From: Harmothoe impar
Taxonomy: Eukaryota > Annelida > Polychaeta > Phyllodocida > Polynoidae
Assembly (NCBI GenBank): GCA_947462335.1
Contig: OX381709.1
Span: 84,258,622-84,322,621, forward strand
Direction of reading: 5' to 3'
DNA: 64,000 nt
Position numbers and translations under genes: made by a program. The notes under the pieces were generated by a model. It ran no database searches. It worked only from the letters and a program-made list of their open reading frames with translations, and was not told the DNA's origin. Position 1 is the stretch's first letter, and each line of letters opens with the position of its first letter. Shown in pieces: positions 28,777 to 62,550 of the stretch.

Positions 28777-29167
28777 ACACCCTCTCATCCCTCACCCCAA
28801 CATCCGTTTCTCCCCACTCACCCCTTCCTGCCTCCCCCACCTCCCCCATGACCCTGGGATTCCCTATAGCCCACCCTAAAAGGGTCTAAAGTTGTCTCCT
28901 TTTTTCTGTCCCTAATCTCTTTTTTTCCTGGCCATATGCGCAGACACAGTGACACATATCAGTAAAATTGATGTCTAATGTAGCTTTCCCGCTGTGAATA
29001 TGGCCGTAGCTGTTGAAATGGTGTTAAACAACCATTACTCACTCACTCCACCCCTCCCTCACCTACCCCCACCTATCCCTCTCCTCCCACCTTCCCCACT
29101 TGTCCTTATTGCCCATTACCCCTCCTACACGCACCACGCGCCCTCCTGCCACACTCTAGACCAGATC

Positions 29168-29193
29168 GGCCTCTCCGCGTCAGCGGAGAGGCC
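29168..29193. other. Perfect 11-bp hairpin with GTCA loop
   Basis: GGCCTCTCCGC, loop GTCA, GCGGAGAGGCC. Isolated, with no poly-T or RNA gene attached. Purpose unknown. Confidence 0.6.
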
Positions 29194-29348: not shown

Positions 29349-29668
29349 GTTTTGACACTATGAACTGGGCTTTCCCTCCCCAAATGTTTTGGGATCCATT
29401 ACAGGAAGTGTGTCTGCACATGTGCAGGGGAAGTGCCCTCTGTGGCCCTCTGGGTGTAAACAAAGCCCCAGGCCATGTGGAACCAATGATGCATGACCTG
29501 GGCAAACATGGAGGACAGATGCACTGTCTGCCAGACATTGTTTCCCAAGAAAAGAACCTCTTTTGTGCGGTATTCTGTGAAGGCCTATGCCAGCCCAACA
29601 ACCTTCAAGCATGTGTTTCCTCCGGACCCAACAGTGGAGGCTGCACAGTCACAACAACATGGAGAAAA
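29349..29668 (+). CDS. Possible exon, unknown protein
   Basis: An open stretch of 106 codons runs from an acceptor (TTATCCAG/GT) to a good donor (AAAA/GTGAGT). The peptide begins F-D-T-M-N-W-A-F-P-P-Q-M and is cysteine- and histidine-rich. The composition looks coding rather than repeat-derived. The W-A-F-P-P string faintly recalls the stretch after reverse transcriptase in DIRS-like retroelements; I hold this loosely. It lies about 3 kb upstream of the transposase exons on the same strand, but its donor is phase 0 while the first transposase exon needs phase 2. So it cannot join directly. It could be an upstream exon with one more exon between, or an unrelated relic. Confidence 0.35.
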
Positions 29669-29834: not shown

Positions 29835-30943
29835 CGCACGACGGGCGTGTGTACAGTCTTACTACGCACGGCGGCCGTGTGTATATCGCCACTATACGCA
29901 CGACGGGCGTGCGTATAATGCTACTATACACACGACGGGCGTGCGTATAGCGCTACTATACGCACGACGGGTGTGTGTACAGTGCCACTATACACACGAC
30001 GAAATATTGAATCACTGGTGGAGAGGAGGAGGGAAGGGTTGGGGGAAATATAGGCCTACCAAGGAAAGATTCGGACCCCCCCTCCCCCCCCAAAAAAAAA
30101 ATATATAAAGGGAAATGTACGATTCTGCACAATACACACGGCAGTCTAGGTAGTATAGATCTATGGGGGGGGGGGGTTAGCATTAACAGGATTATCTTCC
30201 TGTAGGCTAATGTCACTGTGGCATTTTCCAAGGCCCCTGTCGCACATATTTTGTGACAGCTGCCCAGCCCTGATTTTAAATAAAAGTACTGTTGTGTATA
30301 ATATGCTCTTATACACACGCCCGCCGTGTGTATAAGGTCACTATATACACGCCCGTCGTGTATACAGACCCACTATACGCACGCCGAATTCATGGCCTTT
30401 CTAGAGCTGAAATAATTTTGTAAATATTCCAACTAGAACCAAAGTTACTAGCCTTTCTATGATCTACACTATACACGACGGCCGTGTGTACAAGAACACT
30501 GACAGCACTGTACACACGGCCGTCGTGTGTACTAGAAGACTGTACACACGGCGGGCATACCTGCCATACCTCGTACAAGAACTAGGTACAAGGGCTAGAC
30601 AACAGTACAAAGTATGTAGATTGTATCACAAAGAGGCGTGTGTATTGTGCTCTTATATACACGGCCGCCGTGTGTATAGCGTCACTGCACACACGACTTG
30701 TCTCTATCATATTTATAAAATTATTATTTAATAACCGTGTGTGTAGTGGTACTGTACACACGCCCGTCGTGTGTAGAAGAGCACTGTACACACGCCCGTC
30801 GTGTGTACAGTGCTCTTCTACACACGCTGGGCGTGCGTATAACAACGCTATACACACGCCCGTCGTGCGTACAACAGCACTGTACACACGCCCGTCGTGT
30901 GTATACCGGTAGCCGTCTTACTATAGTATAGCCTACACACGAC
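29835..30943. repeat. Arrays of ACACACG/CGTGTGT palindromes with short spacers
   Basis: Palindromic units of the type CACACGACGGGCGTGTGTA or CACACGCCCGTCGTGTGTA recur in clusters: 29835-30001 (five units, then half of one), 30305-30384, 30465-30561, 30634-30698 and 30736-30943. In the first cluster the start-to-start step is 32 bp, with 10-13-bp variable spacers (for example ATATCGCCACTAT, ATAATGCTACTAT). Both outer clusters end in CACACGACGAAAT followed by AATCACT and GGAG. Unusual for this window: rich in CpG and GC. Confidence 0.85.
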
Positions 30944-32593
30944 GAAATCATTAATCACTAATGGAGATCAAGATTAGGGGGGGGGGGGTTGTGACCTGTG
31001 CCCAAGGAAAAATGGGGGGGGGGGGGGTTTCCGAATTTTTCCTTTTGGCAAAAGGAGGCAACACACTAGGTCTACTTTTTTTTAACTATGAAAAGTGTTT
31101 TATTGAAGGATTTCGAAGGTGTAGGCCTAGTGTACCACTTTACACACAACGAAATCTCCGTGATCCAGACTTTCTAGAAGTTCTAGTAGAACTGAAATAT
31201 GTTATCTTTAGGCCATGAGAATTAAATTGAGAGTTTACCGTCCACCGCCCGCATGCCTTTAAAAGGGGCCGCTTGAAAAATTCATTGTTTCAAAAGAAAT
31301 TAATTATTTGCATTTTTTCCATATTTTGAAATGAGTTATCTCCAAAAGGTAGGCATATTCGGTATCAAAATAAAGCTTATGATGTCAGGAATCGTTTAAT
31401 CTAGCACATCAGTCATCACTCAGTCTCAGACAAGACGAACTCCCTATTCTCTAGTCTAGCACTCTACCCTGCAGTGGGGGGGGGGGGGATGTTGGGGGGG
31501 CTTTGTTTGTATAGATTAAGATCACATTGAGTAATGCACTGGTACATGTATTAGTGTTAACAGGGATTAGCGGTGGCCTGCATTGTCATAGGCTGAGGTG
31601 CGAATGGGAGGCTTTGACACTGCCCACTCACATTTGTCAGGTGCTTTACCCCCCCTCCCCCCTCCCCCCGCCTTCATACTCTGTGACTCCTTGAGCTATG
31701 TTAAGGGTCATTTTAGAAATTAGAATTTGGAAAAACTCGCGTATTAGCCGCACCCCGAGTTTAGGCCGATCCTATAAGCCGCATCGGCGATCTGATTCGC
31801 GTACTAGCCGCGGCTTCTACGCGAGACTTTACGGTAGACACATTTTTTTCAAAAACAAAAAAAAAAATTAAAAAAAAATTCCTTAGAAACGACCTAATTT
31901 TTTTGGCCTGTGGCGTAATAAATATTGACACTTTATTCCACAGGCCCATTTATCAAAATCCAAACATAGTCGGGGGGGGGGCCTAACTTTTGCCTAGTTG
32001 GTGGTGGGGAGGGGGAGGAAACATTGCCGTTTTGGAAAAATCCATCATCCCCCCCCCAGCTGCTAATCAATTACTCTGAAAGACACACCCCACTACCCAC
32101 TGACATCATTTGCAAAGGATACTTGGGGTGGGCATAAATATTTGGAGCAAGACATTTCCGAATAGCTCGGAGGGCACACATTCTTTTTTATGCTCCAAGG
32201 GAGTAAAAAAGATTTCTTCCTTTCCACTTTTTTTGTTGCTGTGGGGAAGGAGAAATTTTAACCCATCTCTAGGGGGAGTAAAAACTAAACTCCCTTCTTT
32301 CCACCCAAAAAAACAACACAATACTCCCTGAATGTGTAATGACTTATCGTCATGACGGGGAGGGAGTTTGCAAAGACTTATAGTTCATGAAGGCTTCTGT
32401 TACTACTCTCACTGTAGAGACTAACACACTGCAGCCACTATATTCAACCCCTATACACCTGGGCAATACACCTAGTCATGTAGCTTCACAGTAAAGGAAT
32501 ATAGTGACACAGCTTTTGGACCATAGTATTCACCTTTCCTTAAAAATATTGACTGTCACAACGTTTTATCCCCATGTCCTTTCTTATTTTCAG
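30944..32593. other. Spacer with G runs upstream of the transposase exons
   Basis: G runs at 30977, 31016, 31475 and 31971. A patch of GCGTATTAGCCGC / GCGTACTAGCCGCGGC repeats occurs at 31738-31815, resembling the TACCGTA...GCGC element type seen at 39073. An inverted pair GGCCTGTGGCGTAATAAA / TTTATTCCACAGGCC lies at 31903-31946. The missing 5' exon or exons of the transposase gene should be here or further left, but I could not identify one that ends in phase 2. Confidence 0.45.
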
Positions 32594-35500
32594 GACGGTG
32601 ACAGATATAACCGGATTCCTGTGCAGTCAGTGCTTGACAACACTCAAGAAGTACACGAAGCCCAAAAAAGGACGGCATGGTGTCAGATGCACAAAGCGCA
32701 AATGGGTAGACCCTGGGAAAAGTCCAAAGACCCCTGTGGGTCAAACACGATGCGCGACCCAAACCACCCTGAAATCCCCAGAGAAGAAAAGGTCCAAGAT
32801 GGAACCGTCTGCTAGGCGCGCCGGTTTTATTCAAGAATCTTCTGACCTATTGGACCGCTACAGATATAAAAAGGCATTCCGGAAACTGGCCCAAGAAAGT
32901 GGTCCCGCAAAACAAGCCCTCATCACTGTAGTTGGGGAGATGATACAAGATGAGGTAAGGAGGTTATCTGGTCACTCACAGCATACACTGCATGATAGTT
33001 TTATTTTTCCTACCCAACATGCTCATGTCAAGTAAACCTCAAATAGCAGGATATATATATATATTGTTATTAGTCTCGTTTTTACTTCAGTACCCTAGTA
33101 GCAAACACACTGTGGCCCCGGACGGGGCCAGACTGTGTTTGCAAGTCTGGCCCGGAGTGGGCTAACCGACGGGCTCCCGTCGGTTTAGGGCACTGGGCTT
33201 TGGTCTGGCCCCGTGCGGGCTTCCCATGTTGGGCGCAGATCGGGTTTTGGACGGGAAGCCCACTTTGGGCTCAGATCAGTTTTTGGACGGGCTTCCCACT
33301 TTGGGATCAGATTGGTTTTTGGACGGGCTGAAAGTGGGTTCAGATCGGTTTTTGGACGGGTTGAAAGCGGGCTTAGATCGGTTTTTGGACGGGTTGAAAG
33401 CGGGCTAAGATCGGATAATTATGGGTTTTTAGAATCTATTCAATCATTCTCCAATGATTTCTTGTATTTGTTGAACCAGATATCCTAGGTCCTGCTAATC
33501 AACCCAAGGCATAATCATACTCTTCCGACCCAATAATGGAAGTATCAAACAGGCCTATTATCATCAGGTTTGAGCCACATGCAGCATAGACAAGTGTCTA
33601 TGGTGCACATTGGCCCTCAAAGCCATAGTTCATACCTACATGGGGCACATGAGTCTTATATTAAGATTGTAATGCCACAGAAATAGTGTTTACACTGGAT
33701 AGCTGCTGAGAGAACCTCCTTTTCATCATTCAAATATATATCCTATCTAATTTCCAAACTGTGAGAACATCTATTTATTGTTTCCTATTCTACATCACTT
33801 TAACATTTTATTGTATTATTATATAATGTCAATTTCATCTGGCTTTGTTGGAAAACTCTAGATATTGTATAGTAGTGACATCTGGTGTCAATCATCAGAA
33901 CTATTAGACCAGTTGCCCTGTCCAAACCCAACCTCAGCCCTCATCGGCCCGGAGTGGGCTAACCGACGGGCGCCCGTCGGTTTAGGGCACTGGGTTTTGG
34001 TGTGGCCCCAAGTGGGCTGCCCGAATTGGGCTCAGAACGGGTTTTGGACGGGTTTCCTGTCATCTGGCCAACATGAACCCAAAGCGGGTAGCCCTCTTTG
34101 AAACTGATCTGTGCCCAAATCGGGCAGCCCGCTTTGAAACTGATCTGAGCCCAAAATGGGCAGCCCGATCGGGGCCACACTTCAGCCCAGCCATCTGCCC
34201 AACATGAAACCCAGCTCAGTTTTGCCCGACTTCAAACAGCCAATCCGAGCTAAAACCAAATTGGCCCCGTGCGGGCTTGCTACTAGGGTAATGGTCAGGA
34301 TTTATAATTTTTTTCCCAAGTTGAATGCAGTGTTCTGTCTAAATTTGCCCAATTACCTACAATCTAATCCTTTGTTTATCGTTGTGCACCACCCACATAA
34401 GTGTAAACCTTTATAACATATGGGCCATTCTTTACCTAGTCTATTGTGGAGATTTAACATTTTTCAATTGTCACTTTACTCCTTACATGTATGTTATATA
34501 CTAACATTTCAGTTTTACATATATGACTATTCTGCATGAATCAACTCCTGAAAGTGGTTTACCTACTTTTCTATTTCATAACAACTTTTAACAATTGGCT
34601 TTTTTAGAGGAAGGTCCTACATAAGACAGCCACTGCCTTTGGAAAGGAACTAAATCTGGAGACGTTGCAGGACTTCAACTGGCCTGATGCTATCAACGAG
34701 CTGAAAGACGAGGCGCCTGCTATTGTACGCACTTTGCAGAAAATGTTCCCACCCAAGAAAAAAAGGTTTGTATTTATAACACAATAGGTACATGAATCAG
34801 AGTTGGGTTGAATTTCGATACAAACAGGCCAATATAGCGGTGGTTATATGCAATAGTTTGTTGAATTATAATCCCGTTCTTAGCTCCCAATAATCAAATA
34901 TACTGTGTGTCATTAATTGATTCTCACAGTTTGCGATCCATTTCCTTTTTCTATACACTATACATGGAACCTAGTAGAAAAATTCGTTCATCTGTTTCTT
35001 TTCAGTCCAACTAAAGTCCACCAGAACACACTGTTACATAAACGGCTTGGCACAGTGCTGTCTATCATTCTGTTTGCCGTCAACAGACAACGGTTTGCAT
35101 TCATCCCTACCGCTGTCGGGGTGGAGCTATGGATGCAAGGTGCATCCCAAAAGGTCTTCAAGAGTTTGAACCATATGGGCATCTCTCTGTGTGTCGATGC
35201 TGCCAGGTCACATGTAGACCAACTCCGGGTGTGTCATGACAAAGATATCCAGGACTGGAAAGCCACCATTGAGGTTAGCCTATACTATACTATATATTTA
35301 ACATATTACAACTAATCTTTTTGAGCCAGGGTGCCTCTTACACACTACAGGCAGTCACACAACATGCTGCTACCCTGGTTCTTTGTTGATTAGGATCACA
35401 CGCTGGATTTTCAGTTGGGGAATACACCTAGTCCTGAAGCAGTCAACCAATATTAACAATTTGCACTATGATGGCCCAGTTTGGGTGTGATGTCAAGTCA

Positions 35501-38500
35501 CATTACAATTGCAACCAGAAGCTCCCGGTACCTGAATAGATGCCAGGGTCTCTGTTTTTATTGTAATGTCATTTTTCATGACGGACCTAGCTACTATTCG
35601 GCATAAAGTTGTTGATAACTATAAGAAAAAAACATATACGTGAGATCTATGATACATCACATCCTTCATTATTGTTATTTTACTCATCAGGAGACCCACG
35701 AGAAGGGCCCCAAGAAGTTCAACCTGGACAGAGACTTGTCCCGCAAATCCCTTGCCAAGAATACCGGATACGGTGTGTGCTGGGACAATGTGCAACTCGA
35801 TGTTACTGCCAAACACCAGGGACTGGAGCATGGAAATAAGTTCTTGCTGTGGGGTATGACCTTTGGTGTTGCCCACCGAGTACCCACCCTCCACCTCAAG
35901 CGAGATGACACTATCAGGGCAGTTGACGTCCCTCAAACAGCGTTTGTTCCAACAAGGCATGACTTGAACACTCTGAGAGTCCACATGGAACACGTGGTTA
36001 CCCATGTACTGATTGATAACCTTGACTGCCTGGATGGTCTGAAGATTGAAGAGCATATTCCTCACGAGCACACAGCAGCAATGAATTCTAAAAGCGATGT
36101 GGTAAGTCTAAATTCACTATAAGGTAATTACCATCTAACACAGAGTAACCATACCGTCATATAAGAGTGCATAACAGCCTTAGTAAATTAATACCCATAA
36201 GATAGGTTTCCTTGGTAATAAAATGTACACTCACATTTGAACACTGTATTTATGCACCCCCTTAGTAAAAAAGACATTTGTGCACTGTATGGGTGCTATG
36301 TGTCGGATATACTAGGTGTTGTAGTAGATAAGAAAACATTGAATTAAATAACAGTAACATAGGGGGGGGGGGGCCTCTGATGGGTTCCCTCATATCAAAG
36401 CACATGTTTTACAGTAGGAAAAGATAATCCCTGCCAGGAAATTTAGTTCAATAAGTAATGCTAGTGTCCAATTACTTCTTTTTCCTGATGAACATTTGGT
36501 GTATATCTCCCAACAAATTGTTCCTTTAATGACAGATTTCCCCCTTTCTAGTGCCAGCTTGTTGGTACACAAGGGGTTGGATAGCCTTATTTCTTTTCCA
36601 ATTTCAATGAGGGTGTGGTCGCCTGAAACAATTTTCCTAACACTTTACTCCTACATACATACATACATACTGAGCTGATCACCACTTTGTAACTGTTAAT
36701 GGTATGATGTTCAAGTGATGGTTAATCTAACATGTCACCTTATTTTAGGTCAACCTTGGAGTTGTAGAGGCAAATCCCTCATCTACGGATGGAGTTATAA
36801 CAATCATGGAGAGCCTGTATCGTCATGTGCCTGTGGTCAACAAAGAGCCAATACCCATTCTGTGCAGCGGGGATGGTATGTCGATGGAAAGAATGGTGCA
36901 TGCCCACATGGGCCGTTCGAATGGCAGGGATCACAAAGCCCGTTTGGATGGTTTGGTTGAAAGCCCCCAAGAATTTCATAAGGAAATTATTCTACTCCAG
37001 GTAAGTAATTTAATATTATTGGCAGACTAGGCTTTAATTGCTTTTTAGGGGCATTCCTAATCTATCTATATGTTATTCAATAGGTATCATATGAAGTAAA
37101 ATGTAGTTTCTATGTACTTACAATTTATATATGTGGCCATAGCATACATCTGGAGTTTAAGACTTTTCTCAGTGAAACACCGCTTTAAAAGATGTAGTAT
37201 ATGGAATTTGCTATATGTACACCTGTGTAATTGCAATAATTTATTGCATTGAAATACAGTAAAACTTCTTTATTACAAACACCTTATTACCAGCAAGATT
37301 AATTTGTTGTTAACAAATTTTGTTGTAACCTAATTCAGTATTAGTAGGTAGCTTCAATGAGATTGATCTACTCAAATCGGGTTTATATATATACATTAAA
37401 TATCAACAAAGCAGTAAGCTTGAAAACAGAGCTTGTAATAACAAGTTTTACTGTATATCCAAAGCATACCGTTTAACATGTACTTTCAGGACTACATGAA
37501 CACACTGTTCAAGGGGTCTAGTATTGGGGCACGGGGAACACTGGCTAACCTCAAAACGTGCTTCAAACACAAGTCTCTGCAGAAGGAAGTAAAGAATAAT
37601 GTGGACCAGGTCTGGGATATGATGAAGGTGAATTTACATGCATGTTAATGTTGAGTATCCTTTGTTAATGTTCAAGGCCTACCTCTATGACCAGTGAACT
37701 TCTGCAATCAGTGTAAATAACCAATAACTTGTTAGACTATATGAGAATAATTGTTTTACAGTTTGTATAAACAGATGTGTGAGTAATAAGATAATCACAA
37801 TGTGCCACTACAACATGAACGGGTACCAACATCCATCCCTGTCCCACATTATATTTCGTAACAAACCCTATAGGTTGGTGAGCGACTGAGATTATTTCAT
37901 GAATTTTTGTGTTAATTTTCCATTATTGTTTACAGTTCAGTACTGATGCATACATCACAATGGCTGCACTGAAAATGAGATCTATGGAGGGTATTGATGA
38001 CCTTCCAGAGTCATACCCTGTGGACCAAGGCAAGGAAGCACAATTGCAATGGGTTCGTAGTCTGGCAGGGGAAATTGTAGAATTCTGTTGGATGGCCCCT
38101 AGTGACGAGGACCTTGGTGCCATCGGTCTGGCATTGGTAAACAGCAACTCCGATGAAGAAGTCAGTACCGAAGAGCCATTCCCCTACTGTTGTTGGGAGG
38201 GTGAGATACTTAGAATCAACTTGAAAATACACTTAATATATCCAATTATTGCTATGTCTATCTGTGAGTGGTTGTTCTTCCAGTAACCCTCAATGTAAGT
38301 TTGATTCACTACTACAGCAATAGTATTAGGCTATTATATACTTTTCTCTTCACCTTTAGTCTGATAATTAGTAAGCATTGTGATAATTTATAACCATAAT
38401 AAAATAAGATTTTTTAATTACTACCACTGTAATTTAAGCAGTACATAACACTAATTTATGTTTTTCCTAATCCTACTCTAATCTAAAATGTATCATCTAC

Positions 38501-41500
38501 CCCCAAAATAGTACATGCAAGTGGCCTACAATTCAATGCTGGCAGCGGAAGTCATTCTTACCTGAACTCTTTTCATAATCACACTCATTATCATAATGTT
38601 TTGTTTCAGTGTACCCACCCCAGGTTCATGTGAATGTGGAATGAACTGTATCAAAAGTGATTGTACATGTATTTTGTAGACTTGCATTACTTTACAGAAT
38701 CGTAGCCTCACTCAAGATTTGTCCGAGTCGTTTTGCCCTGAAATGCTGGATGTGACACACCAAATTCTCGGATCAGAGTTCAAAATATAGGAGGTGATAT
38801 TTCAATCTTTTGGTTTGAATGGATGAGTAAAAAGAAGGCTTTGGTTCTTTGGTAAATTTTTCCTTTTAAACTGTAATAATCATCATCATGCAAGGTTCAA
38901 TTGACTTTATTCAAGGGTTGGGACTCGCAATTCTGTATAGACTAGGTTTTACTTGTGGTTGAATTCACAATTTCGTACACCTTATATGTTATAGGTTTAT
39001 TCCTTCAATATGATATTATTTCATTAATATTGTTTACTTTCCTTAACTTGGAGATTACTACATAATATATATTACCGTATTTGACGTAATATGCGCACAG
39101 TGCGCTTAAAAGACGATTATGGACACCTTTTAGTAGTTAATAGTTTAATTGGGGTAAAAAATTGCAATTTAAAAAAGAATTTGTAGTATAGAAATTGGCC
39201 AAAAACAGGGCCTGTCCGCTTATTAGGGGGTGTGCGCTTATTACGTCGAATACGGTATGTCAAGATCAGCATGTTTTACATAAGATGAGGCTTACATAAG
39301 TTTATATAATGTTATTTGCACATGTTTTCCCATTTAATGCAACACACTAAGGCTTTAATAAACACAAGTAACTTTAATGTTAATTATAACAATCAAAGAA
39401 AGTATAACATTATGGTCTTGACTTTATTCTTAAGGTAATGTTGTTGCTACCACATTATAAAATTTATCATAATTAAAGTATATAAGAGTTTTTAGTGGCC
39501 ATGTTATTTACATCGATATAGCACTTGCCGATTTGTCAGAGAAAAAACATTAATTGTATCCAGAAAAAAAAAGGAAAAATATTGACTTTTTGTGGGAAAT
39601 GATATATTTTCTGCTTATTTATTCATCACTAAATTTTAGACCAGGCACGTCAAGAACCTATCCAAAAGGGAAATGGGAGTTAAACCTATTGTCTGTATTG
39701 TAACAATTTCATGAGGTTTTTCTGCAGTTTTTAGTAACGGGTGAAATTATTTGTCCACCAAATTAGGATATGGCCATTCACATCTCCCCTGGTTCTTGAA
39801 AATATTACTAAAAATCCCCTTTGAGGGAATTTTTACCCACCTGCCCACATGATTAATTTCTACCAATAACCTATATGTCCCAGGAGGGGATTTTTCAGTT
39901 ATTGTTTGTTATAATGTGTATTGAGCTGCACTAAGTGCTGATGTGTTTGATAGAAAAACCCGGGCTCCAAGTAAGGTGTTGCAGCTGGGAATGTACAACA
40001 TCCTGGTATCACCTAGAATGCACCAATTTGGAAGGTATTCATTGATGGCAAATAATTATATCACTTTAGTTTACAGTCAGGTCTTAACAGTTCATCCTTT
40101 GATAGCAACAAATACACAGGATCAAACCTGATCTGGGTGTTAGTGTTTTAAATTTCTCTTGAAATTTCGTTTGATAGTCAGTCACACTTTTCATTTGACA
40201 TCCATTTGTAACTGTATGGTTATGTTATTGATGGTGTGCGGAGGGGGGGGGGTGTTGACTTGCCATATTAATGTCTACCATTACATACGGAGGCATAGCC
40301 TAATAATGAACACATTAAATGTTTTTAATTTTCATTAGAACCACCCGCTGACGATGAGGATTGGTACTGTTGCAAGCAGTGCAGTGAGGATGGATCATAT
40401 GTGTATTGCTTCTGCCATGACCGGAAGGGTGGATTGATGGTCCAATGTGCCCTCAAAGGAGAATGCTCCCAACACGAGTGGTATCATGTAGAGTGTGTCG
40501 ATTCCTCCCAGGATCTAGAAGGTGCTTATTTGAATACCAATGATAGACTTAAGAAGTGCAACACTAATATTGTACAATGGTTGTAGTAAAAGGGACTGCT
40601 CATTAAGAAAATTTAATGAAGGGGGTAGTGATGAGGGGTCAAAAATATTCCCCCCCCTACCTTGAGAGCTGTGTAAGTTTTTTAATGACCGGCCCAATCC
40701 ACCACCTCCCATGATGATACATATAAAGTGCATTAAGTATTAACATTATAAAGAAAAATTAATTACAACCCACAGAGAATGTACATGTTTGATTAGGAAA
40801 CCCATAATATTCCTTTCATACAGATAGAATAATTTTACTTTTTGTCTGAAATAAGGCGAGTGGTACTGCAGCGACAAGTGTGCACTGGGCAGGCTTGACG
40901 ATGATCCCGTCCTGAACTACTCTCGTGCCCTAATGTGGCTTGGACTCAACAACATTGTGCGAAGGGCAGCAGTGCGTGCTGGAAATGGACCAGTGATAAT
41001 GTCTCATTGGAAGTTCGACATGCTCAACTTCTGGGAGGCGAATCACCCCAAGTACTTCATCATTGGTCACCAACTTCTGGCCAGTAAGTAGTTGTGCCCT
41101 ACATGGCGTTTTACTTTTGAAAAAACAACAACTTGGTGGCACTTGTATCTAAAGATTAGTTACTCCGATGTGTGCGACCAACATATGATTTTCACTAAAC
41201 ATGAGTCTGAAAATTCACTAACAACAGTATCAACTTCCTATATATTGCATTCACCCTCATCCCCTTGCATTTTTATCCAATTTCTTTTATGGTCATTTGG
41301 GAATACAAGTCTAAATGATTTTCTTTCCCCATGTTAAATAAATTGGAGAAGCCCATATTTGGGCCACATAGGATCCCTTTCCTGACCGATTAATACCCAT
41401 GGATGTTATTTCATTGACCCAAAATATTTTGATATAGCCCCCTTTAATTCTAATTACCATACTTAAACTTTAGTGATGGAAGTAGGTGAAGCATTACTGC

Positions 41501-42823
41501 AGGTGGTGGAAGGGTTCCAATTTTGAATAGGACATGTTATAAGGTAGAGCACATTGTTAAATTTGAAATGTCTTAACTTAATTACAACCACCGTAATTTG
41601 ATCTTGGATTACTTATTTGTAGATGTTGGAGGGTTCCTACCCGAACATCTCCGACAAGATCTTGTGTGGAACCGGCTAGCCAATGTGAAAGGACGCAAAG
41701 GCGAGAACATCGGCCTCGATCTTCTGAACGAGTTCATCAATAACGATTTCAAGGGTAAGAAAATAAGTTTGCCTTCATCACCCTACTCACTATGGGCATT
41801 ATTGAAAAAAAATAACCCATATTTCTACTGTTGTATTATTAAGTGCGTATATATGAAGAATGAGACTCTAAATGAGAAATGCATCAAATTTATACTGCGT
41901 TGTGAGTGGAAAAACTACTTAAGTTCCTTCCTACTAAATTAGTTTCTATCACAAATATTTTGCAATACAGTCATTCACAGATGTAATGTCCTCATGAAAA
42001 AAAGACAATATAATTCATGTTTATGCCCTGCCGCACCTCCTTCCAGCCATCCTACTCTACCTAGATAGCAAATATTCCTGTATCCCCTGTAATAGAGATT
42101 CCTAATTTCTAACATGTAGTAGGGTTCATAATGCACTTTAAATTGGACATCCCATGTTGAAGAAGCTAGGAATGTCAGTGAAGGACCCATTATTCAATGC
42201 GCCTATTATAGATAAAATAGGTGGGTATCGCATATTTCAAGTAGCGTGTCTGTTTGCCTATAGTACAATATGAGAGTGTAAGGGTAATTTTTTACTAATC
42301 TAAATTTAACCCCTCTTTTGTTAAAACCACCTACAACCCACAAGGGGTATAAATGTTCCTTATGAGACTTACCCCATACATAAGTGAAAAAGGATTTATT
42401 TACAGCTATACCCATATTATATAATAGTGTATGAAAATTGCAGAGATGATGAAGCACTGCAATGGCCGTTACACCGACCAGCAGGTCGCAAGATGTGCGG
42501 AAGTTGCGGGCGCTTATCAAAGGCACCTCGACCATCTCTTCACCCTGGCAGGCATCGGAATGCTGGATAGCCGTGGGTGGAATGCGAAGCCTGCTTGCTA
42601 CAAGGAGGATATCCGCACCTTCTGCAATGTCTACAAGAAGGAGGCTCTACTGGACTATCTGCCGGGTAGAGAAATAGAAGGATATGAAGACTTCCACCTC
42701 AACACTGCCGTACGGCTACCATCAAAAATGGGCATCAAGATGTCCTCTCTCTGCAAAGACATGGATGATCGTAGGGACATCGTAGAAAGGACCAAGGAAA
42801 GGCATCAGATTGTGCAAGGGTAG
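32594..42823 (+). CDS. DUF6589-type transposase-like protein with PHD finger (5' partial, 11 exons)
   Basis: Exons: 32594-32954, 34608-34765, 35006-35273, 35691-36101, 36749-37000, 37490-37627, 37936-38200, 40339-40521, 40856-41083, 41623-41754, 42444-42823. Every intron is GT-AG and the phases match, giving 924 residues ending in TAG. In residue order: a C-x2-C helix near the start (F-L-C-S-Q-C-L), a basic K-K-G-R stretch, a W-D-N block (W293, D294), G-D-G-M-S-M-E-R-M (D441), F-H-K-E-I, R-G-T-L, an ING-like PHD (641-687), then G-E-N-I-G-L-D-L-L-N-E-F (D787, E791) and a helical C-terminus. D294, D441 and D787 or E791 are candidates for an RNase-H-fold DDE/D triad. Family and fold are from memory of DUF6589 proteins. 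The first exon, which should supply the start codon and probably the other half of a zinc site, is not found. The role in transposition is inferred. Confidence 0.8.
33091..34290. mobile_element. 1.2-kb element with CCCTAGTAGCAA ends in transposase intron
   Basis: TACCCTAGTAGCAA and TTGCTACTAGGGTA are inverted ends bounded by TA. Inner blocks CCGACGGGCTCCCGTCGG (33168) and CCGACGGGCGCCCGTCGG (33962) are near copies in near-copy surroundings, so the element has two related halves. From 33229 to 33412 a unit of about 35 bp, GATCGGTTTTTGGACGGG plus GAAAGCGGGCTTA, is repeated five or six times. No transposase; a Tc1/mariner-type passenger is inferred from the TA. Confidence 0.75.
37255..37455. mobile_element. 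Mariner-type MITE, 201 bp, in transposase intron
   Basis: Inverted ends TACAGTAAAACTTCTTTATT and CTTGTAATAACAAGTTTTACTGTA. TA on both sides. The inner TTGTTGTTAACAAATTT is palindromic. It lies 35 bp before the acceptor of the exon at 37490 without harming it. Confidence 0.8.
39073..39257. mobile_element. MITE with TACCGTATTTGACGTAATA ends, 185 bp, in transposase intron
   Basis: TACCGTATTTGACGTAATA and TTACGTCGAATACGGTA inverted ends, with GCGC / GCGCTTATT next to them. A longer copy lies at 44755-45093. TA-flanked. Confidence 0.85.
40407..40881 (+). other. ING-like PHD finger region of the transposase (spans one intron)
   Basis: Residues 641-687 read Y-C-F-C-H-D-R-K-G-G-L-M-V-Q-C, then C660, W-Y-H-V-E-C (W665, H667, C670) and W-Y-C-S-D-K-C (C683, C687). 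That is a Cys4-His-Cys3 zinc pattern in the ING style (C-x-C start). Y640, M651 and W665 fall where ING PHD fingers have the residues that hold trimethylated H3K4. A second D-W-Y-C-C-K-Q-C end-of-finger pattern (625-632) precedes it. The intron at 40522-40855 splits the finger before W681. Confidence 0.75.
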
Positions 42824-44754
42824 ATTATCTCAACAGGACAGGGGGTTTTGGGGGTTGGGAATTCATAACTGTAAAGAGTCCTTTTGAAAGTGTTGAACAG
42901 TAGTACTCATTGATGTATGAATCTTAGTTGGTTGTTGTTTTTATATGTTACCTTTTGGTTTTAATCACTTTATATTTTTATTCCGGTAAAACCCGGAATT
43001 AATTGGTTCATCATGGGACTATATTATTGACATTCTGGAAAATAACTGGGTTGTTTTAAAAGTGTTTACCTTTTGAACAGAAGTATCTAAACAAGAATGT
43101 ACTGAAATCCCTGCATTCGTACAAATGCTCTCACTGAAAGACCTGTATTGTACTCCAGAAAGTAGATATTTCATGGTCATTGACAGTATCTTGTGAGGCT
43201 GGTTTGCAAAGAAGTTGAAAAAGTATTTATTTTGCCTTTTTAGTTGGAGAAACATTTTTTATGGGTGTGCATATCATTAAAAGCAAATATCATCAAGAAA
43301 CTTTAGTCAAACGTCATTGATTCTATAATTATGGCCGTCGCAAAATTGTTATTGATGAAAGACTATAGAAGTTATTCAAGTGCTCTATAAAAAGTTTAAA
43401 CTTATTAAAATGAACATAGACATTTACCCTGGACATGGCATAGAGGAAGTATGGAGGAGAACCAGCATTTATAGGAAGCATACACAAATGGTATATCAAA
43501 AGTTTTATTTTACAAAGTGCACCAATACCTACATGGAATGCAATGGTTGTATTTTGGGAGGTGATTTACTGTATTCTGTAAAGTATAGTATCTTGTTCTT
43601 ACCATGTTATGTATCACTTGTTTGAAACACATGATAGAATTGTGCTATCAACTTAAAATGCATTGATATCTTGCAATTTTTCAATATTTTGATGAAACCT
43701 TAACAACAGTATATCACATATCTGTGATTATATATGTCAGTGGTTACCTATTGCGTTGTCTTACCTTTGGTGGTAAAATAAAGGAGACATTGCAGCAACT
43801 GTTAATAACATTGTGATGTGTGTTAAAAGTTTTTTTAGTTACTTTTCTAAACTATTGTACGAGTAATATAAGTCGATAGACATATATTAGGCTGAAAAAA
43901 AATAATTTACCACATAGGACGCTCTCAACTACTAAATGGTGTGGTAAAATTGATCCCTCAATGCAGACTCGCACACCATTTGCAGTCACAGATTTTTTTC
44001 ATTAAGATAATTTGTTATGATATGGTGCTCTATTCATAATTTCTGGGAAATGATTAATATCTAATAAGAGGATTTAGAATAATATTTTTGATGGGTTGAA
44101 GCTAAACTAGACATACTTTTTCAGATTGTGACAGGACAATTCCTATATCGGCAATAGAATTAATACACATATGTGATATGCATGCATGTGAGTTATCACT
44201 GTCAGAGTAGAAATTTACAGATAGGGGTGTAATTAATTATGAACTAAACCTCTATGTGGATGTGAGAATCAATCATACCTATCTAATCACTCTCCTAAAA
44301 CAACACTTCATATATAATAGAACATTAATTTTTTGAATCATTTCATATTCAGGTTATGGACTCTTGGAGGCGTCCATTCAAATCTAACATGTGGGACCCT
44401 CACCCTCTTTGTTTCATACTCCCTGCAAAGCTGTTGGGGACCTAATGCAGCTTTAGCCTGGATGCAGGTCCGAATTATATATAACTTCTGCTTTAATATG
44501 ATATATAGATTCACAAATTAGAATCATTACAATTATGATTACTGCTTCTAAGACAAAAGTGTTAAGGCCTTAACACTACTACCTAATAGTGTAAGGTGTG
44601 TTGGGTAGGAGTATCAAAGATTGGTTTGAATATGGTAGTAAGGCAGGCTGGGAACACTCATATATTTGTTAAATTACGGGTAAATAAATGTTACTTGGTC
44701 CAAGGTCAAGTGGATGGTCGAAGCATGTTTTATTATATATCTTTTATAAACATG

Positions 44755-45093
44755 TACCGTATTCAACGTAATAAGCGCCCAGGGTGCTTAAAACATTATC
44801 TTAAGTTGAAAAATCAAACCCTCAAATAGTCATTCTAATAAGCGCCCCCATGGCTGTCATAAACACTCATTATACAGATCTCATGGGCCTCTAGAAGGCT
44901 TCTACACAGCCCTCTTACTTCACACTTGGCTTGACCTTAACACCTGCACAGGTGTGAGGTGCTCCATGTCACAGACAGGTGTGAAAATCAGTAACAAAAT
45001 CAGAGAAATACATTTTAAGAAATTGGGAAAAATCTGAAAAGGGGGGGGGGGGCGCTTATTAGGGGGAGGGCGTTTATAACATCGAATACGGTA
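44755..45093. mobile_element. MITE with TACCGTATTCAACGTAATA ends, 339 bp
   Basis: TACCGTATTCAACGTAATAAG and ATCGAATACGGTA ends, GCGCC / GGCGC next to them, and GCGCTTATTAGGGGGAGGGCG at the right. Same family as 39073-39257, longer in the middle. Confidence 0.8.
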
Positions 45094-45203
45094 CCTAGAA
45101 AATTAGTGGTATTTCATGTCTAATACAGGGAAATTATCAACATGTTTAAACATTTAATTCACCACATTATACCACAAACCAAACACATTTAATTTGTGAA
45201 TGT

Positions 45204-45209
45204 TTTATT
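45204..45209 (-). promoter_or_regulatory. Possible poly(A) signal of the helicase gene
   Basis: AATAAA on the - strand (TTTATT on +), about 80 bases downstream of the helicase stop codon. The position fits; the word alone is common in AT-rich DNA. Confidence 0.4.
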
Positions 45210-45287
45210 GTTTACTTAAATAACTGGTTTGTGCCACTTAGTCAGAGGAGTATGATAAGACTAAAAACTTTCACAAAAGAGCTCTAA

Positions 45288-48200
45288 TTAAGTTGTGTTT
45301 TGGGTGTTGGACTGTGTGCAGAAACTGCAGCATCTGTTGGTGGCAACCAAGCTGGTAGGTGATCCGTGCAGTTTGGAGAGAACCTTCTGGCGTAGGCAGG
45401 TGTTTTTCTTTTTTGCGGCTTTGACAATGTCAATCATATCAGGTTGTGTCACACCTTCCACAACAGATTTCGGGATCATGTATGTGATAGCATGTCCCTC
45501 GGAACCATCCCTGCTGCATCTTCCCACCTCTTGCCAATAGGTCAGTGCATCCTTGGGTGGACCCCAGTGGAGTACGTATTTGATGTTGTGGATGTCCACG
45601 CCTAGACCAAATGCAATCGTCGCAGACACACATCGTAGTGGGGAGTTAGGATTACGGAAGTTCTGGACTACTCTTTGCTGACTCTCCACATCAGTTTTCC
45701 CGTGATACATGTCCACTAATCGAGCATCAACATCCCCTAGCACACTGTTCTTATGTGATTTGTCACCCAGGACACGACTGAGATACAGGTAGATCCTCGT
45801 CACAACGTTGATAGTGCTGTAATGAAATTGGAATAAAATAAAAGAGTCATTGGAAGAACCACTTGTCTAGAGTAATAACATTAAACAATTTACATATACA
45901 GAAATGATAGCGTTCTTATGACAAAAAGAGCTATTAACCTAGTGATGATAAAATGTTATTTATACTGCTGAAAATTACCTGTTTATATTGTAGGGTATAT
46001 TTAGACAAGAATTGGCTCTATTTAGTTTAGTTATCATTAGTGGGGAAATTATTTTTTTGGAAAAAAACAATGGGGCGTTGGCCCTTATGAAGAGATCATT
46101 CAAGGGTGGTCAATGATTTTAAACATGGCTTACTCTGCATATATTATGGCACGTGGACAATCTTCTTGCATTTCCAGAAGCATTTTGGCATACCAGCCCA
46201 GGTTGTCAGCCATACTTTTGTTGCAGTTCTCAAACGTGATAAAGATTTCAGGCCTGTTAGAAATAACAACTGCCAATTATAACAGTAAAACCAATAGAGA
46301 TAAAATGCATAATAAAAAACATTTAACATATGAAGAGTTTGGTTCCAAAACACATTAAGGGCGATTTTGAAATATCTATTTCTTACAAAGGTGTAGGGAA
46401 GGAATAGGTAAAGGCAATTTTGAAACAAATTTACCAAAAAATGCAATTTTTCCTGTCTTTAGGTCCTTTCTGATGTACACATTATATCTGCCGCACTATC
46501 ATTGGCAATATAGTAGCCTTAGAGAAATCACTGCATGCTTCAATTCTGCAAGGGATTTGTCGCCTTTTGCAACTACCCAGTAAACACAACGACGTTGGTC
46601 AGACGTAAATCTACGTTGAATTTTGGTCTGAACTACGTAATTTTAGTAGGTTTATCAACGTCAAAACGTTAAGGTTTATTTACCAATCTCAAACCTGCAG
46701 GTCTGATTTGCGTAGCTCCTGAAGAGGTAAATCTATGTTTAACACATGACATATAATTCTACATAGTGGGACTCAGACAAAGACTTGTAATATATTGCAG
46801 ACAAATTTACATTTACAAACAATATTCATACAAAGTAACTACTATAATTTTCAATCTCATCTCATTCTACATAGTATATTCTTGTTGTTCAATTGAACAG
46901 CCTGACAGTATAGATCTGTTGAATAGTTTTGGCTGCAGAGAGGCTTTGTATTTCTTCCATTACCACCAATGTGGTGTCCTCACAGTAAAGTGCCTCAAAG
47001 CACCTATTCATGCACAATACTTTAATCACCTGTCCTTTATATATAAATATTCTATTGAATGTGGTTTATTTGCATGATATTGAATTCACAATTAATGAGA
47101 ATTTACTGCTTGAATGTGGTAGATTTGTTAAGGAGCTGTAATAATTATACTCTCCATAATTGATAGTGCTGCCACCTAGTGTGACACGGAAAAGTCATCT
47201 ACCCAATTGAAGTTGAAAAGTTACGTCTTTTAACATAGATCTACGTAGAATTTTTACGTCTGAATGAGGTAGGTCAACGTAAATCAGACGTCTACATCTG
47301 TTGAACGTAAATAAACCTTAACGTTTTGACGTCTACACACCTTCCAAAATTACCAATCTCAAACCTTTTGGTTGGACATCTACCTAGAGAAACCTCTGAG
47401 CTACGTTGGAACTACGTAGGGTGTTTACTGGGTAAACTCTTCATATGTTGATATTGTAAATCAGGCAAGGATAAGGATTGGTTGGAGCATGTTTGTCCTA
47501 AGTGCACTCCACATAAGTTAGAGGCTGGCTTAGTTGCATAATTTCTGTTACACTATTACACTTTCGATAGATAATAGTGGAATACAATAAGTAAAATGTG
47601 TGCAAAAAGGATCATGATTTAAGCCCTTATCAAAGAAAATAATAGCAATCATTAATTTTTATGATGGATGGATGGAAGTGTTTACCTGTCTGGAGATAGT
47701 GCAATGATGTTGAAGCTCTTAGGAAGGCCGAGCTTGGTAGCGACATCATTTGTCATTGGTGGGGTAGCTGTGGCTGTGAGACCCAGGATTGTAGCATCTG
47801 GAAGTATGGCCCGCAGTTCTACTACACGGAGGTAGTCCTCTCTGAAATTAGGTCCCCTAAAATGGTAAAAGCACAGATTTAGAGAACTTCTTACAGGATT
47901 AATACTTTTCCTGAATCAAGATGGCAATAAAAAAGAGAGGAACGCAATATTTCATGTTTTCACCCTTACATTAGACATGGGCCGTTTTTGCCTTTAGTGA
48001 CATGGGACATGAGGAAAAATTAGATTGGGACATGGGGTATTTTTTTAAATCAATATGGCGACATGGCCATTTCTTAAAATCTACATGGGACATGGAGACC
48101 CCCCATCAAGGGCCCCCATTTTGGGGAAATTGTTATTATAAAAGTATATATGTCTGGGGAGCAAATTTAGGTTAGGCTGGGAATTGGGTGTAGAGATGAA

Positions 48201-50139
48201 AATATTTCAAATGATTTTAATAAATGAAAGGTCGTGTCAATAAGGTTTACAATTATATAAAATTTAAATTGTGTAACTATTCCTACCAGATGCTAAGGCA
48301 GTGAACCTCATCAACAGCCAACAGTTTCACCTTGCTATCAAGAAGCGTAAAGACATCCCACCAAATGTCCTGGTGCACCACCTCGGGTGAAGCGATAAGA
48401 AGGTCATAGTCACCATTCTTGACAGCTTCAACAGAAAAATAGAGGTGTTAAATCTAGTATGTTATAAAACAAACATTTGAAACTGACATTTATTACATGT
48501 TACTCATTATAATATAGAAGAAAGTTGTGTTTTATGATATAATATAAAAAATACCTAGAATCATCAATATACACAGACTAATATTCAAGTCATGGATATA
48601 CCCCTGGTAGTCGAGAGGCCAAAGAGCAAGGCTTTTATCAATGATATTCACTGGAGAGTATGAGTCCGTGTTTGGCGCAAATTTACAGGACCGGACGCAG
48701 ACTCGTCCCCTTTTTCGTCTAGTCTGTGTCGTGTCCAAGTCCCATCTGTGTTTTTTGCGCCAGCCTATATTCTTTGTCTGTTATCATTGACATACAATGA
48801 GCACAGTCTGAACATCGGGGGTTCCAGTCCCGACAGGTGGACATTTTTACTTAGGTGCTTTATGGTTATTTTACATTATGATGCATAAGTGCAATGGGTT
48901 TTTTTCCTATCAAGTCCCAATAACAAAGATTGAATAGTTGCCTTAAAATATTCCCTTTAGGTATCCCTGTGCTGTCCTGCTTTTTTTTAAATAAATGAGA
49001 TGTCTGCCCATGCACCTGACTGTGGGTCAGCGGGAGGTAAGTTCGATTCACCAAAAGCCTGTGAACATTTTTAGATTTGATTTCTTCCAGGATAAAACAT
49101 AAATTCACAAACCAGTAGTGCATGTCATCTCCTTGACATAGGTCTGCCCCGATGGATTACCCGGTAGAATAGAGGACTGCAGGCTGTAGGGTTTGTGCTG
49201 CTGCGTTCAAATACCAATACAACCATGGTTTTAAATGAGAGACGGTTCTGATAACCTCCTCTCAGACTTGGCCTACTTCATATAACCTCGCGAGGAGGTT
49301 ATACACATATACACCCCTAGGAGGTGGTTATATTTTTCTCTTTGAGAGCCCCTGTATCTAGCAGGATCCGTACCCACAACCTCAGAACATTGAGGCCAAC
49401 AGCTAGCCGACTGCTCCACCGGGACTCATGCAATGATACTAAACAGCCAATAATATATCTAGTGCTTCGGCCTTTTTACAAAAGAGGCTACACTCTTCAA
49501 GCATGTGCTCTGACCATTGTATTTTTATGAGAACACACAGGGGATATGTTTGATGATCATATAACCTCCTAGGAGGGTTATACAGGATATCCTCCTAGGC
49601 CACATGTGTGGAAAAATAGGTGTAATCAGGCTATTTTACATAATCAATATATGAAAGCGGGCTGTATGTCGGATATCCTCCTGCTGTCTCAAGTCAATAT
49701 CATAGATATAAGCTTCGGCCTTGGCTAATATGGATGATATTGCCTCTCGACCCCCACGAGTATATCCAGTACAAACTCCTCACCATGTAATATGAAGTAG
49801 GTCACTCCACCCAGGCTATTTCAGATCAGCTGGTGGTCTGATAGAAGACAACATGGCATGTGACCTGCAGTAACAACAATAAACCAAACACCCAGGCGCA
49901 GTATAAGGAGTAACAACTAGAAGTTATGGGACCATTTATAGGAACTGCAAAAGTATATGTATATGCAAAAATAATTAGGGTTGTATCATAATACCTTCTA
50001 CAGTTTCAGTGGTAACTTCATTTTCCGGTCTTAGAACCAGGGTGTTCACGCCATTCCCCATCCAGCTGTCTTCATGATTTGCAGATAGGGCATTCAGTGG
50101 TGATATAACGAGAGCAATACACTCTTCCCCTGGATGTAG
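45288..50139 (-). CDS. RecQ-type SF2 DNA helicase (5' partial, five exons)
   Basis: Exons in transcript order: 50139-49995, 48425-48287, 47856-47686, 46253-46134, 45816-45288. Phases match at all four GT-AG introns; 367 residues, then a stop. Motifs by residue: Ia V-I-S-P-L (11-15), II D-E-V-H (87-90) followed by C-L-S-I-W, III L-T-A-T-A-T (121-126), IV A-I-I-Y-A-D (187-192), V A-T-I-A-F-G-L-G-V-D (257-266), VI Q-E-V-G-R-C-S-R-D-G (287-296). A cysteine group at the end (C-L-R-Q, R-C-C-S-F-C) may be a shortened zinc-binding region. There is no winged-helix or HRDC domain. RecQ enzymes unwind DNA 3' to 5' using ATP. The exon with Walker A (motif I) is missing from the visible sequence. It faces the transposase gene tail to tail, 2.5 kb apart, which suggests they are parts of one mobile unit. 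Confidence 0.85.
46576..47432. mobile_element. 857-bp element with CCCAGTAAACAC ends in a helicase intron
   Basis: CCCAGTAAACACAACGACG and CCTACGTAGG-GTGTTTACTGGG ends. Subterminal ACGTCAAAACGTTAAGG (left) is mirrored by CCTTAACGTTTTGACGTC (right). Its outer 10 bp equal those of family A, so the two may use the same enzyme, but the interior differs (CTACGT and GACGT words). No ORF worth calling. Confidence 0.8.
47960..48115. repeat. Dispersed ATGGCGACATGG repeat in a helicase intron
   Basis: CAATATGGCGACATGGCC, ATTTCTTAAAATC and GGGACATGGAGACCCCCC with CATCAAGGGCCCCC, close to the copy at 25980-26300. Confidence 0.6.
48600..49440. other. tRNA-like (SINE-like) fragments in a helicase intron
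   Basis: Four B-box-like words lie within 600 bp: GGGGGTTCCAGTCCCGAC (48808), GTAAGTTCGATTCACC (49037), GCGTTCAAATACC (49203), and on the - strand GTGGGTACGGATCC near 49365. The last two are preceded at tRNA-like distance by A-box-like GGATTACCCGGTAGA and GGTGGAGCAGTCGGC. None folds into a proper cloverleaf. Palindromes CCTCGCGAGG and CCTCCTAGGAGG flank the last one (about 49288 and 49567). Confidence 0.35.
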
Positions 50140-50519
50140 CTGAAAGCAAAATGGGCGATGTTTACTTAGCATCATCTTTCTCAAAATACAGTGTGACTGT
50201 AATGTAGGACTTAATAATAGGAAATATTTTGGATGTTGTCAGAGGGTCGGAATATGGCAACCTTCCCCTATAATTTTAATTTTTCACATGACGTCATGCA
50301 CAACATGACCACCACCCCCAACCCTCTTCTCATGTTTGGGGGGATAATTGAAATGTATTCAAAATTTCTTTTTGGTGTAGGGATTTCAACCTTGAATCAA
50401 TGGAGTGTGGGGGTCATATGTTTTACTGGTTGTTGTTTTTTTAACTCAAACTTTGTAATGTGAATATTACAAAATAGAATAACCGGAAATGGAATCACAA
50501 AGTCTGATTGTAAAAATAC

Positions 50520-50720
50520 CATCAAACATTCTGATTCCTGTCCACTGGGTCCAGGCCACCAGGTGGGGTTGGCCTGACCAAGAAAAATACCAAGTTCAAG
50601 GTCATTTGGCCACTACCAGAGCCTTCCTTTGGAGGGAATGAGTTTAGGGTTTCAACTAACTCCGGTCTCCCGTAATCTGGGGAGTTGGCCTTTGGGGAAA
50701 ACCTTTAAAATAAGAATTTA
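50520..50720. repeat. Half copy of the 59697 fold-back element
   Basis: AAGTTCAAGGTCATTTGGCC and CTACCAGAGCCTTCCTTTGG match one arm of 59697-59996. The other arm is absent. It lies just upstream of the first visible helicase exon. Confidence 0.6.
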
Positions 50721-50830
50721 AAATGTATATTCTGGTGAGTTGTGAGAATATTTGAATATGCGAGTGATAATTTGTTAACAAAGGGGGGATGGTGCCTTTC
50801 CGCGTGGAGGGTGGGAAATTTTTTACACCC

Positions 50831-51030
50831 NNNNNNNNNNNNNNNNNNNNNNNNNNNNNNNNNNNNNNNNNNNNNNNNNNNNNNNNNNNNNNNNNNNNNN
50901 NNNNNNNNNNNNNNNNNNNNNNNNNNNNNNNNNNNNNNNNNNNNNNNNNNNNNNNNNNNNNNNNNNNNNNNNNNNNNNNNNNNNNNNNNNNNNNNNNNNN
51001 NNNNNNNNNNNNNNNNNNNNNNNNNNNNNN
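50831..51030. other. Assembly gap (200 N)
   Basis: The left flank (TTAACAAAGGGGGGATGG, TTTCCGCGTGGAGGGTGGG, AAATTTTTTACACCC) matches the start of the poly-G fold-back family seen whole at 12831-13158. The gap probably hides a G-run hairpin. The round number suggests an estimated size. The missing helicase 5' exon could also lie here. Confidence 0.9.
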
Positions 51031-51109
51031 GTTATCTATTCTCTTGTGTTTGAGTTTGATATTCCTTTATTTATAAGGGCCTACTGTAATAAATTAATGG
51101 GCCTATTGT

Positions 51110-51365
51110 ATCATGAATAGGGTCAAACTCGCCAGGGCTTCATTGGTGCATCATGCCAAGCCTTCAGGAGTGTCTCAATCTCATAAGGTCAGCATGATGC
51201 TTGAATGCAGCCAGTTACTCGCCAGTGCTGCATTCATGCATCATGACGACCAAGGGCATGATACATTAAGGCATCATTTTGAGGACGAGTCACTTGCCGG
51301 GGCTTCACTGGTGCATCATGATGACAAATGTCATCTTTAAGCGACATGCATCCTTAAAGGGTTAA
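51110..51365. mobile_element. Family B MITE, left end lost
   Basis: ACTCGCCAGGGCTTCATTGG, TCAGGAGTGTCTCAATCTCA, TAAGGTCAGCATGATGC, hairpin, CAAGGGCATGATACATTAAGG, then a repeated half, ending GACATGCATCCTTAAAGGGTTAA. Two B copies may be fused here. Confidence 0.6.
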
Positions 51366-52141
51366 GGGGCTAATGAGTTATAATTAATGCCACATTGACA
51401 TGTTTACTCCTGCTCTGGACAGAGATCAAGGTACTCCGTATATCACCCCCCCCCCCCCCCCACACACACAACACACCCTCCCCTTGTCTGTCACCGTGCC
51501 AGCAAGGTCCTTGACCCCCCCAACGACCCCCCCCCCCCCCCCCCCCACACCAACTGACCATGGCGTCATTCAGTGATGTGATGTAGTAGTGTACTGGGCC
51601 TACTGCCTACTGGCCACCACTATGTCATGTATACATGTCATGTAGATGGATGGATAGAAAGTTCCTACTCCCCACCCACTTTCCCCGCCCTCCTATTCCC
51701 CTTCCCTAGTCGTTAGACAGAGGCATAGGAAGCAAATCGTCATTGGGGGGGGGGGGCAGGGGGGGCCCAATCCAACCAACTTTAAGTATCGGCTTTAATG
51801 CATGATATATATCATATACACACTTATATTGGATTGTATAGAAAGTAGTATTTGAGCCCCCTTTAGTTCTGGTTGGGGGGCCCAGGCCCCTGTGCCCCCA
51901 CTTTTCCCTATGCAGGAGAGGTGAGAATTGGAAATTGTGTCTATTATATTACGGGTCTTGACAAACTTTGGGGGGGCCCAAACATATTCATTTAATTTTG
52001 AAAGTTTGCTCTAGTTTTAGTAGAAAGCCAATTATAACTAAAACATAATGACATTCTACAGACCCCACACCAACGTTGTAGGTCCCACACACCTGGGGGG
52101 GATCTGAGGACGAGTTTGTTGTCTGTCCTGTAAAAGGATCG
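51366..52141. other. Spacer with C and G runs, no gene seen
   Basis: C runs at 51447 and 51527; G-rich GGGGGGGGGGGCAGGGGGGGCCC at about 51745. A short GGGGGCCCAGGCCCCTGTGCCCCC patch occurs at about 51876. Nothing coding. Confidence 0.4.
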
Positions 52142-52213
52142 AGGCACCACCGAGGTTCGAACTCGGGCTCCTGGATTCAAAGTCCAATGTGCTCACCACT
52201 ACACCATGGCGCC
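52142..52213 (-). tRNA. tRNA-Gln-TTG: tRNA-Gln (anticodon TTG), copy 2
   Basis: Base-for-base the same 72 nt as the gene at 19808-19879, on the same strand, with all stems intact and anticodon TTG. The upstream and downstream flanks share nothing beyond a base or two. That points to gene conversion or selection rather than a recent segmental copy. Confidence 0.93.
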
Positions 52214-57460: not shown

Positions 57461-57464
57461 CTCC

Positions 57465-58612: not shown

Positions 58613-58616
58613 CTTT

Positions 58617-62532: not shown

Positions 62533-62550
62533 AGAAGTGTATATATATCT

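Follow-up and report, generated by a model that had tools for sequence, protein, structure and literature searches.

A likely AcademH transposon with convergent DUF6589 transposase and RecQ-like helicase genes in the annelid Harmothoe impar

We analysed a 64,000-nucleotide stretch of the Harmothoe impar genome (assembly GCA_947462335.1, contig OX381709.1, positions 84,258,622 to 84,322,621 of the forward strand), hereafter called the window, with positions counted from its first base. The window contains two genes lying tail to tail, one encoding a DUF6589-type transposase and the other a RecQ-like helicase, which we interpret as the two genes of a likely large DNA transposon. A second copy, on contig C594, is 97% identical and served as the main comparison. 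The features of the window copy and the evidence for each are as follows.

29157..29193, + strand: left terminus, TAGACCAGATC followed by a hairpin with an 11-bp stem and a 4-nt loop (arms 29168-29178 and 29183-29193)
29508..29668, + strand: first coding exon (MEDRCTVC...), found by tblastn with the Branchiostoma floridae relative P0001; in phase with the next exon, kept in C594
32594..32954, + strand: transposase exon; AG/GT sites, matching phase, kept in C594
34608..34765, + strand: transposase exon; splice sites and phase, kept in C594
35006..35273, + strand: transposase exon; splice sites and phase, kept in C594
35691..36101, + strand: transposase exon with WDN, the proposed first catalytic D; splice sites, C594, alignment
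36749..37000, + strand: transposase exon with GDG, the proposed second catalytic D; splice sites, C594, alignment
37490..37627, + strand: transposase exon; splice sites and phase, kept in C594
37936..38200, + strand: transposase exon; splice sites and phase, kept in C594
40339..40521, + strand: transposase exon, first part of an ING-like PHD finger; splice sites, finger comparison
40856..41083, + strand: transposase exon, end of the PHD finger; splice sites, finger comparison
41623..41754, + strand: transposase exon with NEF, the proposed catalytic E; splice sites, alignment
42444..42823, + strand: last transposase exon, with the stop codon; splice sites and phase, kept in C594
45288..45816, - strand: RecQ-like helicase exon with motifs V and VI and the stop; splicing, Pfam, C594
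46134..46253, - strand: RecQ-like helicase exon; splicing, C594
47686..47856, - strand: RecQ-like helicase exon with motif III; splicing, C594
48287..48425, - strand: RecQ-like helicase exon with the DEVH box; splicing, C594
49995..50139, - strand: RecQ-like helicase exon with motif Ia; splicing, C594; the preceding Walker-A exon was not found in the window
50831..51030, no strand: scaffold gap of exactly 200 N; the C594 alignment ends earlier, at 50339

Eleven plus-strand exons (32594-42823) had AG acceptors throughout and GT donors except in the last, which ends with the stop, and gave a single open frame when spliced. With the added first exon the complete transposase was 978 amino acids long with no stop, and a Pfam search identified DUF6589 (PF20231, E 1.9e-30). 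The five minus-strand exons (50139-45288) encoded 367 residues and a stop, with matches to DEAD (1.6e-10) and Helicase_C (5.8e-13); among solved structures (PDB), RecQ-family helicases were the nearest by sequence. The exon set is trustworthy because the C594 copy, unlike chance open frames, kept every exon with 0 indels and 0 stops. Splice sites, open frames, Pfam domains and conservation in C594 thus indicated that the 11 plus-strand and 5 minus-strand exons of the first-pass annotation are genuine and lie tail to tail. That annotation had placed the unit at 32594..50139, a range narrower than the element: comparison with C594 put the start at 29157, the coding exon at 29508-29668 had been missed, and the right end is missing from the window copy.

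Both genes of the window copy are under purifying selection. Comparison with C594 revealed 26 synonymous and 6 non-synonymous changes over 978 transposase codons (ratio of non-synonymous to synonymous rates, dN/dS, 0.062), and 13 synonymous and 7 non-synonymous changes over 368 helicase codons (dN/dS 0.156). Selection on the helicase suggests that it is a working part of the element and not a passenger.

Judging from its sequence, the DUF6589 protein is predicted to act by DDE (Asp-Asp-Glu) catalysis, and its ING-like PHD finger sits inside the presumed catalytic domain. Compared on its own with YNG1, the finger gave an E value of 6.2e-8. In the alignment it kept the Tyr, Met and Trp positions of the ING pocket for trimethylated histone H3 lysine 4 (H3K4me3) but not an Asp; we take these four positions to be part of that pocket in ING proteins. 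Reading of a histone mark by the finger is a prediction only. No PHD finger of this sort was seen in the DUF6589 protein of the pair on contig C51. A protein search with the window transposase returned 3 relatives (Branchiostoma, Patiria), and one with an alignment of its relatives returned at least 5, all from Branchiostoma among the matches listed; no fungal relatives were among the matches listed in either search. A cysteine-rich stretch following an AG was read by eye in a transposase intron at 38618-38673 (VPTPGSCECGMNCIKSDCTCIL, then a stop); it could be an alternative last exon, in which case the protein would end without reaching the PHD finger or the catalytic E.

On the right side the C594 alignment stopped at 50339. 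No Walker-A exon was found at 50140-64000 in a search with the exons of two relatives, and this exon was present in the copies C1, C3, C21a/b and C2a/b. The first helicase exon, with Walker-A, and the right terminus of the window copy were probably lost at the 200-N gap. The right end, expected as ...GGCTA followed by (T)GCCACACTC, was sought via the left flank and via the right end of short copies and was not found; because it is missing, the target-site duplication (TSD) of the window copy itself cannot be scored.

A genome-wide search (1.51 Gb, 736 contigs) returned 52 matches to a transposase fragment, 67 to Pfam PF20231 and at least 98 to RecQ (best 111 of 186 candidates), which were clustered into 71 DUF6589 and 65 RecQ clusters. 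A RecQ cluster lay within 30 kb and in convergent orientation at 53 of the 71 DUF6589 clusters and in another orientation at 2, leaving 16 with none. Chance would give 0.18 convergent pairs. The figure of 53 does not count independent insertions: duplicates or alternative alleles may be among the clusters, some of which are nearly identical or come from small unplaced contigs. Across 22 other loci paired between the transposase-fragment and RecQ searches, the identities of transposase and helicase to those of the window covaried (Spearman 0.78, or 0.74 on bits). It could be argued that two separate transposons inserted side by side by chance, since 16/71 DUF6589 and 10/65 RecQ clusters were solitary and a nested insertion is in fact present within the transposase gene, in an intron (33093-34288). 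The excess of convergent pairs over expectation argues against chance neighbours, and we regard this explanation as having a negligible probability.

Exceptions to the convergent arrangement were noted. Both genes lay on the same strand in the non-convergent pairs L048 (C51:27001-34500) and C11:38.26M; in the C51 pair a single open frame encodes the transposase, the RecQ protein carries a zinc-binding domain, and the ends of this copy were sought and not found. Isolated DUF6589 exon-like fragments with no RecQ within 30 kb occurred at C18:67161942, 67192574 and 67946303; the window's left end recurs at C18:67212724, 20-51 kb away from two of these fragments.

The terminal 134 bp of the window element matched 28 places in the genome, 21 of them from base 1. 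The 21 left ends matching from base 1, window and C594 included, were read, and the 7 matches starting further in were left out; all 21 begin with TAGACCA at the same first base, and their flanks are unrelated. The left flank of C594 is likewise unrelated to that of the window, indicating a separate insertion. The right end of one short copy matched 25 places, and in the window family 16 short copies (about 0.7-1.9 kb) were read at both flanks. With the end fixed at GGCTA, all 16 had a TSD of 9 or 10 bp, exact in 14 and with one mismatch in 2 (L058/L069 and L056/L073). This fixed-end reading was made by hand; a script run on 12 of the 16 gave a longest exact match of 7-11 bp in 11 and none in L058/L069. 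One short copy is embedded in a C run, another has an altered last base, and some permit one extra base.

The larger copies provided the link between the ends and both genes. Copies C2a and C2b aligned piecewise over about 14.4-14.7 kb and C21a and C21b over about 12.6-12.8 kb, in both cases with unrelated flanks. C3 spans 8213855-8228289 (14,435 bp) with the 9-bp TSD AGGTGGGTC, and C21a has the 9-bp TSD ACCTTTCAT; C21b sits within a C run, and the TSD of C2a/C2b reads as 6 to 8 bp, varying with the placement of the ends. The right end of C1 was not found within the stretch fetched. The termini are TAG...CTA, with TAA at one end in the C2 and C3 elements. A search for TA-ended elements with exact duplications of 8-10 bp and a filter on the terminal inverted repeat score recovered the C21 ends and missed those of C2 and C3, because the inverted repeats of these copies match too poorly. 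Both genes lie between a single pair of ends in C3, C2 and C21, which, together with the duplications, refutes chance neighbours for these copies.

We also considered that the locus is a host gene pair, or a former transposon domesticated and kept for a host function. In agreement with this, the genes are under purifying selection and both are intact, as far as assembled, in two copies. Against it, the same left end was found at different sites with unrelated flanks, and the sequences at the 53 convergent places are strongly diverged; we consider a host function very unlikely. Collectively, the data indicated that the window holds a copy of a large DNA transposon with tail-to-tail genes for a DUF6589 transposase, predicted to be of DDE type, and a RecQ-type helicase, and that it is likely AcademH, a reading to which we assign a probability of about 0.82. 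The idea, put forward in the first-pass annotation, that the pair forms a single large DNA transposon was therefore upheld within this genome: the two genes are repeatedly convergent and not mostly solitary, and alignments run to common termini, with unrelated flanks and with TSDs of 9-10 bp in the short copies. The findings suggest that DUF6589, a Pfam family of 'unknown function', is a transposase family. They also reveal a diverse helicase-bearing lineage, with five subfamilies having at least one end defined and short copies of one, which was mobile not long ago in this genome.

Nine ends, drawn from five subfamilies, have a hairpin with its 5' arm starting about 10-12 nt from the tip, and the stem sequences are unrelated. 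The hairpin at the window's left end was more stable than all 300 of 300 shuffles. Three of the nine ends are not independent, since C1_L and C3_L were located by the hairpin search and C3_R then by its duplication; the placement of C1_L has no confirming duplication. The six ends placed by alignment or duplication scored 11, 11, 7, 10, 12 and 8 with arms starting at offsets 10-13, a range picked after the ends had been seen. When the same scan was applied to 2000 internal 70-mers, 74 reached a score of 7, 31 reached 8, 8 reached 10 and 6 reached 11. By folding energy, C3_R was no better than shuffles (44/300 as stable) and C21a_R was modest (4/300 as stable). Within the window family the hairpin is nearly invariant, leaving no covariation test there.

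Based on these observations, we propose that the transposase would pair both ends and cut them, and would join them to target DNA with a stagger of 9-10 bp, repair of the gaps giving the duplication. The helicase would likely unwind DNA, either at the ends of the element or at the gap remaining after excision. RecQ might melt the tip and so let the hairpin, some 10-12 nt further in, fold and mark the end for recognition; alternatively, it might remove paired or structured intermediates in the course of repair. Action of the helicase at the element ends is a tentative proposal, to which we give somewhat less than an even chance. Alternatively, the helicase of this same element may not act on the ends at all, and may help to repair gaps at the donor or target site or displace proteins in replication. 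In cells, RecQ enzymes act at forks and in recombination, consistent with such a role. In addition, PMC10045372 suggests a link between TSD length in AcademH and AcademX and their helicase and nuclease. The hairpin at a similar distance in nine ends of five subfamilies suggests action at the ends instead, and we rate the repair role slightly below even odds. The near-fixed distance of the hairpin makes the question of why a cut-and-paste element carries its own helicase directly testable. A bolder version of the proposal is that the ends are marked by shape and not by sequence, a RecQ-exposed hairpin at a near-fixed distance, its stem free to differ between subfamilies, being read by the DDE transposase while the ING-like PHD finger steers insertion to histone-marked chromatin; we consider this unlikely.

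Other features of the window were recorded alongside the element. A repeat that does not belong to the element is nested in its first long intron:

33093..34288, no strand: nested 1,196-bp repeat with terminal inverted repeat CCCTAGTAGCAA, flanked on each side by TA

Its first ~500 bases have at least 39 other copies at 98-100% identity in the genome (best 40 of 1661 candidates), and the repeat is absent from the same intron in the C594 copy; these features mark it as a short DNA transposon with recent activity. The stretch 30300-30950, in the intron that follows the first exon, is rich in short imperfect palindromes built around ACACACG(G/C)CCGTCGTGTGT. ARAGORN reported tRNA-like genes at 13883-13954 (Thr), 19807-19879 (Gln) and 52141-52213 (Gln), which may be parts of short interspersed elements. 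A long C-rich low-complexity stretch at 1048-2163 is strand-asymmetric, with reading frames open on both strands.

With respect to known systems, AcademH, in the paper that defines it (Kojima 2020), is reportedly found in animals and fungi, going by the title as cited. The element is most likely a new AcademH family, matched to published descriptions of AcademH. Kapitonov et al. reported a RecQ helicase in Academ (PMC3627910), and TSDs are given as 9 or 10 bp for AcademH and 3 or 4 bp for AcademX, a difference suggested to relate to the encoded helicase or nuclease (PMC10045372). PF00270 and PF00271 are among the domains listed from AcademH, KolobokH or Helitron (PMC10799480). The likeness to AcademH lies in the helicase, of DEAD plus Helicase_C type in both, and in the duplications, 9-10 bp in the short copies of the window family and 9 bp in C3 and C21a. 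The first-pass annotation had presented the pairing of RecQ with a PHD-bearing transposase as one not known to be described; the RecQ of Academ and the 9 or 10 bp TSDs of AcademH were already in print in these sources, so that claim is not supported. In the literature searched we found no description of the DUF6589 and RecQ pairing, of hairpin ends or of the PHD-bearing form; this counts only weakly as evidence that none exists. Hairpin ends and the ING-like PHD finger are possible variants and the less familiar features.

A nuclease-bearing relative in the same genome allows a comparison with AcademX. L049 (C1:17914501-17920500) contains a 1,644-amino-acid reading frame, open at the end of the region retrieved, in which a DUF6589-type transposase is joined to a predicted XPG/FEN1-like nuclease domain. 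It is the one examined among eight DUF6589 clusters without RecQ that carry open frames of 1,061 to 1,671 codons. Comparison of its nuclease part with the PDB by sequence gave nothing meaningful, and the Pfam scan of the two window proteins revealed no nuclease families. A nuclease beside DUF6589 is what would be expected of a nuclease-bearing Academ, and PF20231 scored above its cut-off in the L049 transposase, which lends indirect support to an Academ-type transposase in the window family. Two results weigh against such a transposase type: window-type and nuclease-fused transposases showed no significant match when their profiles were compared, and 5 relatives of the L049 protein gave 2 sub-threshold PF20231 hits and 3 none. 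The window family differs from AcademX in its TSDs, 9-10 bp against 3 or 4 bp.

A DDE transposase with a RecQ helicase is found in KolobokH, and one rhodophyte Kolobok has RecQ on the complementary strand (PMC9587614), so that a KolobokH-like element, with a Kolobok transposase and a RecQ helicase, had to be weighed. The same source gives TTAA duplications for Kolobok and reports KolobokH only from fungi. The 16 short copies here have varied 9-10 bp duplications in place of TTAA, and we consider a KolobokH-like origin highly improbable.

Helitrons carry a hairpin some 10 nt inside one end and, to our knowledge, make no target-site duplication; the AcademH-like element shares with them a helicase and a hairpin at about this distance. 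If its ends were marked by shape, it would be a DDE transposon whose ends carry a single-strand signal of the kind known elsewhere from Helitrons and IS200/IS605. Helitrons combine the helicase with a Rep/HUH nuclease (PMC12730594), whereas the element described here has 9-10 bp TSDs and a predicted DDE enzyme.

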